This document shows, piece after piece, positions 12,833 to 16,965 of a stretch of DNA of 42,117 nucleotides. The stretch spans positions 1 through 42,117 of the forward strand of contig JACPRI010000194.1 of the NCBI GenBank assembly GCA_016190065.1, in the 5' to 3' direction. The stretch's first letter is position 1, and every line of letters begins with the position of its first letter. A program made the position numbers and the translations under genes. The DNA is from Verrucomicrobiota bacterium (GTDB taxonomy: Bacteria > Verrucomicrobiota > Verrucomicrobiia > Limisphaerales > SIBE01). The notes under the pieces were generated by a model. The model was not told the DNA's origin. It searched no databases and saw only the letters and a list, made by a program, of their open reading frames with translations.

Positions 12833-14227
12833 TTAGCGAGTTGACGCAAGCACACGAACATGGTCAAAGACGGATGTGGCCAGGGAGGCGTTGTCCCACG
12901 AAGTCACGCCCAGGCCGATGTAAATGCGCTTGCTCATCTTGATTCGGACCGCGCCGGCCTTCGTCCACCGTTGGCCGTCGGGCGATATGGAAGCGGTAAT
13001 GGAGTCGCCCTTGCGCGTCAGACGTAGCCAGTGCGGCGCGCCTTCACGGCCCACGCGATCGGATTTGCTCTCGATCGCGGGCCGATGCTCGAACTCAACA
13101 TTACCGTCAGGCCGCAAAAACAGAAACGCGTGCGGGGCCGCGGTCTTGAGGCTTTCGCGGATGACCACGCCCGCTTTTCCTCCCGGATGCGACATCTGCA
13201 GGTCCGCGATGCGCGCCATGACTTCGCCGTCGCCATCCAGGGCTTGATAAACAAAGTGAAATTGGTCCTTGGTCAGGCACGTGTTTCGCCCAGCGCCCTT
13301 GGCCGTGCAACGATCCCCTTCCAGCCGCGCGGCACCGGCCAGTCCGACCTCGCCGACGTCCTGGGAATGCCACGGTTCCTCCAACAGCGAACGCGCGGCC
13401 ATCTCGACTCCTTTCGCGGCCATCGCGAAGAATCCTCCCGTCACCAGCGCTGATTTGCCGTCATCACGATTGACGAATTGGATGGTTCCATCCAACACGT
13501 CCAGCCGGCTGAACTGCGCGTTCACGGTCAGCAGAAATTCAGTGCCCATGACCATGGCTTCGGCGTGGGGCGTCAGGACCAGCATAGGCTGTCCCTTGGG
13601 TTGAGGCGCGACCTTGGCCGTGATGGCTCCCACGGCCAATTCGAGCCGATGGGCAGCGTTGGTTCTCTCCAAACGCAGCCGCGTCCCGGTGTGCAGTTCC
13701 AGCGTCGTGGCCTCCTTGAGGTACGCCACGGTCGCGCCGTTCTGAGCGGAAGTTTGAATTTGATCACCGGACTTCACAGCCATAACGCCGGTCCAGGCGA
13801 CCGGTTTGCCTCCCCGTACCAGAGTCACGCCCTGGGCGCGCCCTTCGATCTGTGCGAGCGTTTCGTTCTCGGCCGGCCGCAGCAGCAGGAAACAAACAAC
13901 GGCCGTAGTTGCCGCCGCCGACAAAGCGAGCTTCCATTTCGCTCCGCGGAACACACGCCGAGTGGCCAGCCAGATTCTGTGCGGGTGGCCCTCAAACACT
14001 TCGCTCTCCCGAACCTCAGCCGTCTCGAAAGCGCGGGCTTGCTGCCCGGCCTCCAAACGAGCTTTCGCGGCCAAAAGCGCTTCCAGCAGGTTGGCGTCAA
14101 AGGCAAACTCTTGCCGCAGCCGTGCGCGTCCTTCCGCCGTGCTCAACCAGGCGTTCAGCTCGGCCAACTCTTCTCGCGTCAGGGTGCGATCGTGCCACTT
14201 GACGAGCAATTCCTCCAGTGGGGTCAT
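12833..14227 (-). CDS. FecR-type anti-sigma/signal protein with C-terminal DUF1349-like domain
   Basis: A 464-residue single-pass membrane protein. Residues 1-45 resemble the FecR cytoplasmic anti-sigma segment (WHDRTLTREELAELNAWLSTAEGR). A membrane helix lies near 98-117 (LALSAAATTAVVCFLLL). The FecR domain spans about 125-265 (GVMAVKSGDQIQTSAQNGATVAYL, LTPHAEAMVMGTEFLLTV, RLDVLDGTIQFVN). The C-terminal 180 residues form a lectin-like jelly roll resembling DUF1349 (WHSQDVGEVGLAG, GVVIRESLKTAAPHAFL, HWLRLTRKGDSITASISPDGQRW). Its ATG overlaps the sigma-factor stop by 4 nt (ATGA), so the two are translationally coupled and form a signalling pair across the membrane. Confidence 0.87.
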   Translation of the reverse strand: MTPLEELLVKWHDRTLTREELAELNAWLSTAEGRARLRQEFAFDANLLEALLAAKARLEAGQQARAFETAEVRESEVFEGHPHRIWLATRRVFRGAKWKLALSAAATTAVVCFLLLRPAENETLAQIEGRAQGVTLVRGGKPVAWTGVMAVKSGDQIQTSAQNGATVAYLKEATTLELHTGTRLRLERTNAAHRLELAVGAITAKVAPQPKGQPMLVLTPHAEAMVMGTEFLLTVNAQFSRLDVLDGTIQFVNRDDGKSALVTGGFFAMAAKGVEMAARSLLEEPWHSQDVGEVGLAGAARLEGDRCTAKGAGRNTCLTKDQFHFVYQALDGDGEVMARIADLQMSHPGGKAGVVIRESLKTAAPHAFLFLRPDGNVEFEHRPAIESKSDRVGREGAPHWLRLTRKGDSITASISPDGQRWTKAGAVRIKMSKRIYIGLGVTSWDNASLATSVFDHVRVLASTR

Positions 14228-14766
14228 AAACCCAGCTCCTGCAGCTTCAACTTCTTTTCCACGCAGAGGGCGAGAGCCTCGCGGAGGCGGACGAGCGCTT
14301 TGATCACGGCGGCGGTGGATTGCCGCAGGTGCGAGGCAATCACGCCGATGGAAAAACCCTCCTCGTATTTGAGCAGGAGCAGCCGTTTGGATTTTTCCGG
14401 GAGGGCGTCAACGCATTGGTTGAGTGCGTATTGGCGATCCGGCCAGCGATCCTTGGACGGATCGGCCTCCGCAAAGGCCAGCTCGACGTAATCGACAAAT
14501 TCCAGAAGCGTGCTGTCCGCCACGACTTTGGCGACTCGCTGTTCCCGCCAATGTTGAAGAATCAGATTCTTGGCGACGGCCCGGCACCAATTGGTCTGAT
14601 TCTCGATCACGGTCCCGTTTTCCAACGCGCCCGCCAGCTTGAGCCAGACGTCCTGGTAAATGTCCTCCGCCGTCTGTGGGTGCCGCACGAGTCCGTAAAT
14701 GAACGCCATGAGCTGTGGCCGGCTGGCCAAAAACTCCGTGGTCACTTGTTTTAGCGCTTCGCTCAT
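14224..14766 (-). CDS. ECF-type RNA polymerase sigma factor
   Basis: A 180-residue sigma-70 family factor of the kind expanded in Planctomycetota and Verrucomicrobiota. Region 2 spans about residues 10-75 (LMAFIYGLVRHPQTAEDIYQDVWLKL, then NLILQHWREQ). Region 4 spans about 120-172 (ALPEKSKRLLLLKYEEGFSIGVIASHL, a helix-turn-helix, then AVIKALVRLREALA). Its stop overlaps the start of the FecR gene. It probably controls its own operon and possibly the Rieske, YceI and hydrolase genes downstream, although no promoter motif was identified. The 90 nt upstream to the next gene hold nothing recognisable. Confidence 0.9.
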   Translation of the reverse strand: MSEALKQVTTEFLASRPQLMAFIYGLVRHPQTAEDIYQDVWLKLAGALENGTVIENQTNWCRAVAKNLILQHWREQRVAKVVADSTLLEFVDYVELAFAEADPSKDRWPDRQYALNQCVDALPEKSKRLLLLKYEEGFSIGVIASHLRQSTAAVIKALVRLREALALCVEKKLKLQELGL

Positions 14767-15566: not shown

Positions 15567-16007
15567 TTAATCCAAAGCCTCCCGGCGGCAAAGCGCTTTT
15601 TGGGGCAAAAGAAACTTTCTAGCGCCCGGCGGCTTCGAGGAGGCTTCAAATAAGAATCCCACCAGCACCCGCGCAATGGCCGCGCGCTGCAGTTCGCCGC
15701 CGGAAAGTTCATGCGGACAGTGGTCCCGGCGGTGCGTTAGACCAACCTTTTCCAGTAATGCCGCGCCGCGCCGCGGATCACGGCGGCGCGCGAAGAATGC
15801 AGGTAAAGCAACGTTTTCGGCAACGGTCAGCGTCGGCACGAGTCCGAAATGTTGAAAGACGAAACCAATTTGCTCGCGGCGAAAACGGGTTCGCTCTCGC
15901 TCGCTGAGTTCGCGCAGCTCATGCCCGTTGAGGCGCAGCGAGCCGGAGGTCGGGCTGTCCATGCAACCAAGGAGGTTGACGTCGAACCGATCCATCGGCG
16001 GGGCCAA
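15567..16007 (-). pseudogene. Remnant of an ABC transporter ATPase (LolD/MacB type)
   Basis: Only the middle of an ABC ATPase remains. From about 15975 to 15655 the minus strand encodes LLGCMDSPTSGSLRLNG, the Q-loop segment IGFVFQHFGLVPTLTVAENV and the signature LSGGELQRAAIARVLV. The Walker A loop, which should precede LLGCMD, is destroyed (the DNA reads GGTTCGACGTCAACCTC where a GKST-coding stretch is expected), and the frame leaves the family straight after the signature, so Walker B and the H-loop are missing. No permease gene is adjacent. A decayed fragment left by rearrangement next to the toxin-antitoxin pair is the simplest reading. Confidence 0.75.
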
Positions 16008-16165
16008 CCGACGCCTTCTCCCGTGCTGCGTGTTACCCTCGATTTGGATTCAGCCGTCCCAGGCGGCTTGCGTTTTCGTCCCCTTCTTTAGAAACTCGAC
16101 GCCATCGAATCGGCGCTGTGCCACTCCTCGAATCATCGACAACTCGACATTGGAAAGACATTGCC

Positions 16166-16759
16166 ATGGCGTTTTTGAAATTAGTGGCCGAGTCTGAAGC
16201 GACGGGCGCGGTGAAGCGTCTTTACGATGCCGCTTTGTCCCGCGCGGGCTACGTGGCGAATATCATCAAAGTGATGAGCCGCGATGTCGCGACCGCCGAC
16301 GCCTCCATTCAGTTCTACATGCGGTTAATGAAATCGGAGAATGCGCTCAGCAAGGCGCGTAAAGAAATGCTCGCCACTGTCGTCAGCAATCTCAACGATT
16401 GCTTCTACTGAACGTTTTCTCACGCGGAGGACTTCCGTGCGGAGTCTGGACAAAATGAAGCGGCCGACCAGTTGATCTACGATTATCGCCGCACGCCCTT
16501 GAGCCGGGAAGACCGCGCGCTTTGCGATTTTGCCGCCAAGCTGACGCTTCACCCCGGCGCGATGGAGAAATCGGACTTCGATCGGCTCATCGAGCATGGT
16601 TTCACCGACGAACAAATCACCCTCGGCGTTCAGGTCATCGGCTACTTCAATTACATCAACCGGGTCGCCGAGGGGCTGGGTGTTGATCCCGAGCCTTGGA
16701 TGAAACTCACGCCGTCCGAGTGGCGGCAAAAGAAATCAAACCAAAGGAACATATCATGA
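16166..16759 (+). CDS. AhpD-like peroxidase-related protein, candidate selenoprotein (TGA = Sec82)
   Basis: Read through one in-frame TGA (16409-16411), this encodes a 197-residue member of the carboxymuconolactone-decarboxylase/AhpD family, peroxidase-related branch. It begins MAFLKLVAESEATGAVKRLY after GGAAAG, the usual family N-terminus. The redox motif is C79-F-Y-[TGA82]-x3-H86; relatives have CxxC-x3-H, so the TGA stands exactly at the second redox cysteine. After it the frame stays open for 115 codons and keeps family features (SHAEDFR, LSREDRALCDFAAKLT, DEQITLGVQVIGYFNYINRVAEGLGVDPEP). Selenocysteine in AhpD-like proteins is known from other bacteria. The alternatives are a TGC-to-TGA nonsense mutation or a sequencing error. 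Its stop overlaps the next start (ATGA). Confidence 0.75.
16417..16444 (+). promoter_or_regulatory. Candidate bacterial SECIS hairpin
   Basis: Starting 6 nt after the TGA, bases 16423-16428 (CGCGGA) pair with 16434-16439 (TCCGTG, one G-T pair), leaving the 5-nt apical loop GGACT. C421-G441, C419-G442 and T418-A443 can extend the stem past a mismatch and a bulged T. The loop begins with G and starts 17 nt after the TGA, both within the range described for bacterial SECIS elements. The structure was folded by eye only. Confidence 0.5.
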
Positions 16760-16965
16760 AATACGGAGCGAGAAACAACGTGACCGCGCGAGTGACCTCG
16801 ATCAAAAGCGACCCGGTCATGTCGTTGGTGAAGTTCAAAGTCGTGGGTCCGGCCAAAATGGCTTCGGTCCTGACCACCGAATCCCTGCAGGAGCTTGACT
16901 TGAAGGTCGGCGACACGGTCCAACTCGTCATCAAAGCGATCAACGTGCTGCCGGTGAGGGAATAG
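16756..16965 (+). CDS. Molbindin (Mop/TOBE-domain molybdate-binding protein)
   Basis: A 69-residue single Mop domain starting MKYGARNNVTARVTSIKSD, with the typical VMSLVKFKV, ASVLTTESLQELDLKVGDTVQLVIKAINV ending. Such proteins bind molybdate or tungstate as oligomers in the cytoplasm and act in storage or as sensors. The ATG overlaps the preceding stop by 4 nt (ATGA), and AAAGGA lies 6 nt upstream, so it is translationally coupled to the AhpD-like gene and should only be well expressed if that frame is translated to its end. Confidence 0.85.
   Translation: MKYGARNNVTARVTSIKSDPVMSLVKFKVVGPAKMASVLTTESLQELDLKVGDTVQLVIKAINVLPVRE

Follow-up and report, generated by a model that had tools for sequence, protein, structure and literature searches.

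The stretch of DNA analyzed here (the window) comprises 42,117 nt of contig JACPRI010000194.1 from a Verrucomicrobiota bacterium and carries on its forward strand, at positions 16166-16759, a gene predicted to encode an AhpD-like, peroxidase-related selenoprotein of 197 residues. A preliminary description, made from the letters alone, had pointed out a frame interrupted by a single TGA (16409-16411) within a C-F-Y-TGA-x3-H motif. Indeed, this TGA is the sole break in the frame, which runs on for 115 codons to a terminal TGA stop (16757-16759). In the read-through protein, whose N-terminus reads MAFLKLVAESEATG, the TGA is codon 82 and takes the place of the second cysteine of CxxC in the motif C79-F-Y-TGA-T-F-S-H86. 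Profile analysis bore out the further claim that the codons after the TGA keep the family pattern: TIGR01926 (peroxidase-related enzyme; curated cut-off, 81.8 bits) matches residues 3-177 across the TGA at 155 bits, and scores 131-157 bits against the relatives L021, L042 and L089. The read-through protein also matches CMD (PF02627). Like the model NF041238 (AhpD_rel_CFYUT), it has the C-F-Y-U-T motif, and it aligns to the C-terminal half of that model, but the model has 357 positions and the score of 65.2 bits lies below its cut-off of 175 bits, for which reason membership was rejected. As anticipated for standard gene callers, mechanical ORF calling cuts the gene in two (16118-16411 and 16472-16759), and the 20 codons left between 16412 and 16471 are conserved at the protein level in comparison with relatives.

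Directly downstream on the same strand, a small TOBE-domain protein of the molybdate/oxyanion-binding type is encoded at 16756-16965 (PF03459, 2.2e-9), its ATG overlapping the selenoprotein stop (ATGA, 16756-16759). By eye, neither L021 nor L042 showed this neighbor immediately downstream. On the reverse strand, an ABC-transporter ATPase gene (15567-16007) that lacks the start and end of its domain, and is probably a remnant, adjoins the selenoprotein gene, and a FecR-like protein and a sigma-70-type factor are encoded as a pair at 12833-14766; such a pair also adjoins the AhpD-like gene of G052 (L020). A scan by eye for other in-frame TGA candidates across the window found none that was convincing.

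The Glu...CxxC...His active site that characterizes the TIGR01926 family is present, with Sec as the predicted second Cys. On the forward strand, the codons of Glu67 (16364-16366), 12 residues before Cys79, and His86 (16421-16423), 4 residues after position 82, specify putative proton-relay residues, and that of Cys79 (16400-16402), the first residue of CxxU, a putative resolving cysteine. Glu67, Cys79, Tyr81, U82 and His86 are invariant in the seven Sec orthologues described below. The best solved homologue, the AhpD chain 6k40 (6.7e-31), is colinear with the window protein, similar in length and has the same Glu/Cys/His positions, but carries Cys at position 82, with an identity of about a third to two fifths as estimated by eye. 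We take 6k40 to be the Deinococcus radiodurans AhpD-like protein of a study on H2O2 resistance (PMC8945050). The spacing of the five residues is identical to that of the relay in Mycobacterium tuberculosis AhpD (Glu118, Cys130, His132, Cys133 and His137), and Pseudomonas aeruginosa PA0269 has Tyr at the position of His132 (PMC3141380). Both proteins share the Glu-x11-Cys-x2-Cys-x3-His spacing with the window protein but have Cys for Sec and are otherwise remote in sequence (PMC3141380).

Codon 82 is TGA in seven distinct genomes from two families of the order, namely that of the window, three others of its family (G052, locus L020; G090, L021; G532, L042) and three of the other family (G602, G592 and G588). 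L042 lies on JACQWK010000200.1, apparently the same contig as that of G532, the two being equal in length and alike in sequence by eye. Homologues with Cys and homologues with Sec at this site both exist: among 65 non-redundant homologues from the order and the phylum, 55 carry C, 7 carry U, 2 carry G and one is gapped, so that Cys occupies the site in 55 of the 57 non-Sec relatives having a residue there. In a phylogenetic tree, the seven Sec forms make up a single clade (branch support, 97/88) beside two PDB proteins, and deeper placements are unsure because of long branches elsewhere in the tree. A second TGA in G588 and G592 was considered as a second Sec codon and rejected, as it is the terminal stop. 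In pairwise comparisons of the genes from the window, G052, G090 and G532, synonymous divergence was large (pS, 0.43-0.83), and pN/pS ranged over 0.14-0.28 in the part preceding the TGA and 0.13-0.36 in the part following it, which indicates purifying selection of about equal strength on both sides. Post-TGA differences fall mostly at third codon positions (for the window and L042, for example, 13/10/43 by position). The preliminary description had argued that a random nonsense mutation would strike exactly this codon only by chance; its recurrence in seven genomes, with large synonymous divergence among the four compared, goes far beyond chance. The Sec-carrying relatives are free of scattered stops and frameshifts. 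A different picture is seen in G075, where locus L115 (G075:C18) is a decayed remnant of the C-terminal 66 residues with in-frame TAG/TAA stops and a deletion, which suggests gene loss in one lineage. Outside the phylum, the search extended to plasmids and viral contigs, together with a single scan of genome contigs; no relatives were found in the viral contigs, and among the matches listed for plasmids there were only relatives at ~33% identity or less.

The four components of the selenocysteine pathway named in the preliminary description were all found in the genome. selA (C141:11503-12849; 479.6 bits), selB (C141:7912-9864; 321.8 bits) and selD (L009:270-1193 of G000:C408, reverse strand; 369 bits) score above their curated cut-offs, and a tRNA-Sec with a UCA anticodon lies on C149 (65.6 bits). 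Because the genome is only 68% complete, recovery of the full set is informative. selD itself is interrupted by an in-frame TGA within SSCAGUASK, at the known active-site Sec position of SelD, and is predicted to be a second selenoprotein gene of the genome. selB was also above cut-off in the three same-family Sec carriers checked (G532, G052 and G090) and, counting the window genome, in 33 of the 97 genomes searched.

Two overlapping hairpins follow the TGA. The preliminary description had proposed as SECIS a hairpin at 16414-16451 whose loop, GGACU, lies 17 nt from the TGA. This hairpin is present in the window (-12.7 kcal/mol), but its stability is not above that of shuffled sequence (z = -0.36), it breaks in relatives and only 65% of its cells are paired across seven sequences, against 98% for a hairpin at 16429-16447 on the same strand; it was rejected as the SECIS on these grounds. 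Judging from the conserved pairing in these seven sequences, the SECIS is most likely the latter, with the predicted core GGAC-U-UCC-GUGC-GGA-GUCU. Its apical loop GUGC (16437-16440) lies 25 nt past the TGA, and in a bulge-free register, nearly equal in predicted energy to the one with the bulged U, the loop is CGUGC at 24 nt. Two pairs show compensated changes, from C-G to U-A at two synonymous third positions in G090 and from G-C to C-G in G588, and the observed covariation score was matched by 4 of 500 3'-shuffle controls. Since just two of seven pairs vary, the covariation support is modest, and we give the conservation of this hairpin among seven related sequences moderate weight; it may be due in part to the protein motif DFRAES. 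In the loop, the first G is followed by T in one of the two families and by G in the second, at a position where A and C would also be synonymous (CGN, Arg), and the published bacterial SECIS rule favors G then G or U in the loop (PMC13188914). The rule further sets an energy threshold of -7.5 kcal/mol or below (PMC13188914). The 19-nt core has an energy of -5.4 to -8.2 kcal/mol depending on member and register (-6.1 to -6.5 kcal/mol in the window and about -5.6 kcal/mol in G090), and the cores of some members thus lie above the threshold unless flanking pairs are counted. The loop of the 16429-16447 hairpin falls within the range of 16-37 nt after the UGA and has a G among its first two positions, as expected of a bacterial SECIS. 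A fit to SECIS rules, as originally claimed for the 16414-16451 hairpin, is weak evidence when taken alone: of 120 codon positions picked at random from the ORFs of the window, 44 (37%) also passed the rule in our implementation, and we rejected a match by itself as evidence for a SECIS. The rule being non-specific, the evidential weight rests on conservation. In the SECIS core of Escherichia coli fdhF, the loop is GGUC, about 18 nt from the UGA. The window hairpin resembles it in that a single U bulges from its 5' strand, below three pairs and a tetraloop with G then U/G, whereas the loop in the window clade is GUGC or GGGC, 25 nt from the UGA, with two near-equal registers.

We weighed these observations against three other accounts of the TGA. 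It might be a nonsense mutation, or an error of the assembly, in what was once a CxxC AhpD gene, a suspicion to which the origin of the sequence from a MAG assembly, the local gene decay indicated by the truncated ATPase gene upstream and the decayed relative in G075 all lend something. However, the TGA recurs at the same codon in seven independent assemblies from two families, the frame has no other stop or frameshift, with the G075 remnant as a contrasting picture of decay, and constraint is about equal before and after the TGA; the last point puts a pseudogene out of the question for practical purposes, and its probability is negligible. The same can be said of a functional 81-residue truncated product followed by a separate gene, starting for example from TTG 16472. 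Mechanical ORF calls do split there, but the break would cut through the catalytic CxxC-x3-H helix, both halves are covered by the family domain, and the 20 codons between the two calls are kept as protein, which leaves this account with virtually no credibility.

A somewhat less remote, though still very improbable, account is that a suppressor or non-canonical tRNA reads the TGA as some other residue, for instance Cys or Trp. Cys would also suit the site, and the identity of the amino acid is deduced only indirectly. Against this account, the genome encodes the whole Sec pathway, including a canonical tRNA-Sec with a UCA anticodon (ARAGORN scan covering four loci), the ordinary stop of the selenoprotein gene is itself TGA, a conserved hairpin lies at SECIS distance, and SelD has TGA at its Sec site. 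The selenoprotein reading put forward in the preliminary description is supported by the Cys and Sec homologues, the Sec machinery and the intact relatives, and we hold it to be very probable as a whole, that is, with Sec82, SECIS-directed UGA decoding and Cys79-Sec82 chemistry.

As for how this selenoprotein would be made and would work, Sec insertion itself, the peroxide chemistry, the substrate and the electron donor are what we infer. SelB, directed by the short hairpin that follows UGA codon 82 at a distance of 24-25 nt, would bring Sec-tRNA(Sec) to the ribosome, and decoding of this codon as selenocysteine would yield the 197-residue AhpD-like peroxidase-related protein. The resulting active site would be Glu67...Cys79-Phe-Tyr-Sec82...His86, with Sec82 replacing the second relay Cys. 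By analogy with AhpD, the Glu/His relay would deprotonate Sec82, which would then attack a peroxide or else an oxidized partner, for example a peroxiredoxin of the AhpC type. The selenenic acid would be resolved by Cys79, and the selenenylsulfide so formed would be re-reduced by a dithiol donor. We assume that Sec confers a gain in activity over Cys. We consider its most likely role to be that of a selenol/thiol pair reducing either peroxides or a partner of the AhpC type. Peroxidase activity is reported to be only weak in AhpD-like proteins such as PA0269 (PMC3141380), and the physiological role may therefore be electron transfer to another peroxidase. In D. radiodurans, a mutant without the AhpD-like protein is sensitive to H2O2, and the protein contributes to resistance by way of its CxxC motif (PMC8945050).

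The gene adds one more member to a kind of selenoprotein that has been described before, the CxxU type of TIGR01926, and does not represent a new kind. Such proteins appear in a catalogue of selenoprotein families, whose reference 59 is presumably an earlier survey of the Sargasso Sea. The catalogue lists a predicted family "AhpD-like protein, TIGR01926, CxxU" with MCB9421940.1 as its example (PMC13188914 Table 1), and the survey, of 2005, reported 27 sequences of AhpD-like CXXU proteins (PMC1088965). Compared by description, the window clade and the catalogued family share the NCBIfam model, the CxxU position, a single Sec, a bacterial origin and a downstream SECIS, while the window clade comes from two families of one order, in Verrucomicrobia-related MAGs.

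Several other selenoprotein-like loci were encountered. Within the same class, L081 (G386:C10:155000-156100) is a different AhpD/CMD-like gene with TGA at the second motif Cys (CDYU); its Sec site appears to be independent and to belong to a family more distantly related. Deiodinase-like (PF00837) genes with an in-frame TGA (FGSYTUPPF / FGSHTUGPF) are present in genomes of the order at L073 (G030), L074 (G024) and L076 (G052:C41), and the deiodinase-like gene of G026 (L075) reads FGSCTCPPF, with Cys at the site. In G052, the AhpD-like frame (L020/L079; G052:C127:127-963) joins a deiodinase-like C-terminal domain at about residue 168. The fused domain is without an active site of its own and the contig end is near; this fusion is likely an assembly join or a deletion and was left out as evidence.

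With regard to the TOBE gene, the ATGA overlap of stop and start means that elongating ribosomes would reach its start only once the UGA has been read as Sec. Coupling of its translation to selenium supply would constitute a selenium-responsive translational switch, and we regard such coupling as unlikely. As gene callers would split the AhpD-like gene, the enzyme may be absent from the proteomes of these Verrucomicrobia-related genomes or be represented there by two fragments. The seven orthologues form a clean TIGR01926 Sec clade with a SECIS and would be a useful training set for selenoprotein finders. The overall picture of selenoprotein biology is unchanged, and the selB counts together with the Sec clade add evidence for selenocysteine use in this order.
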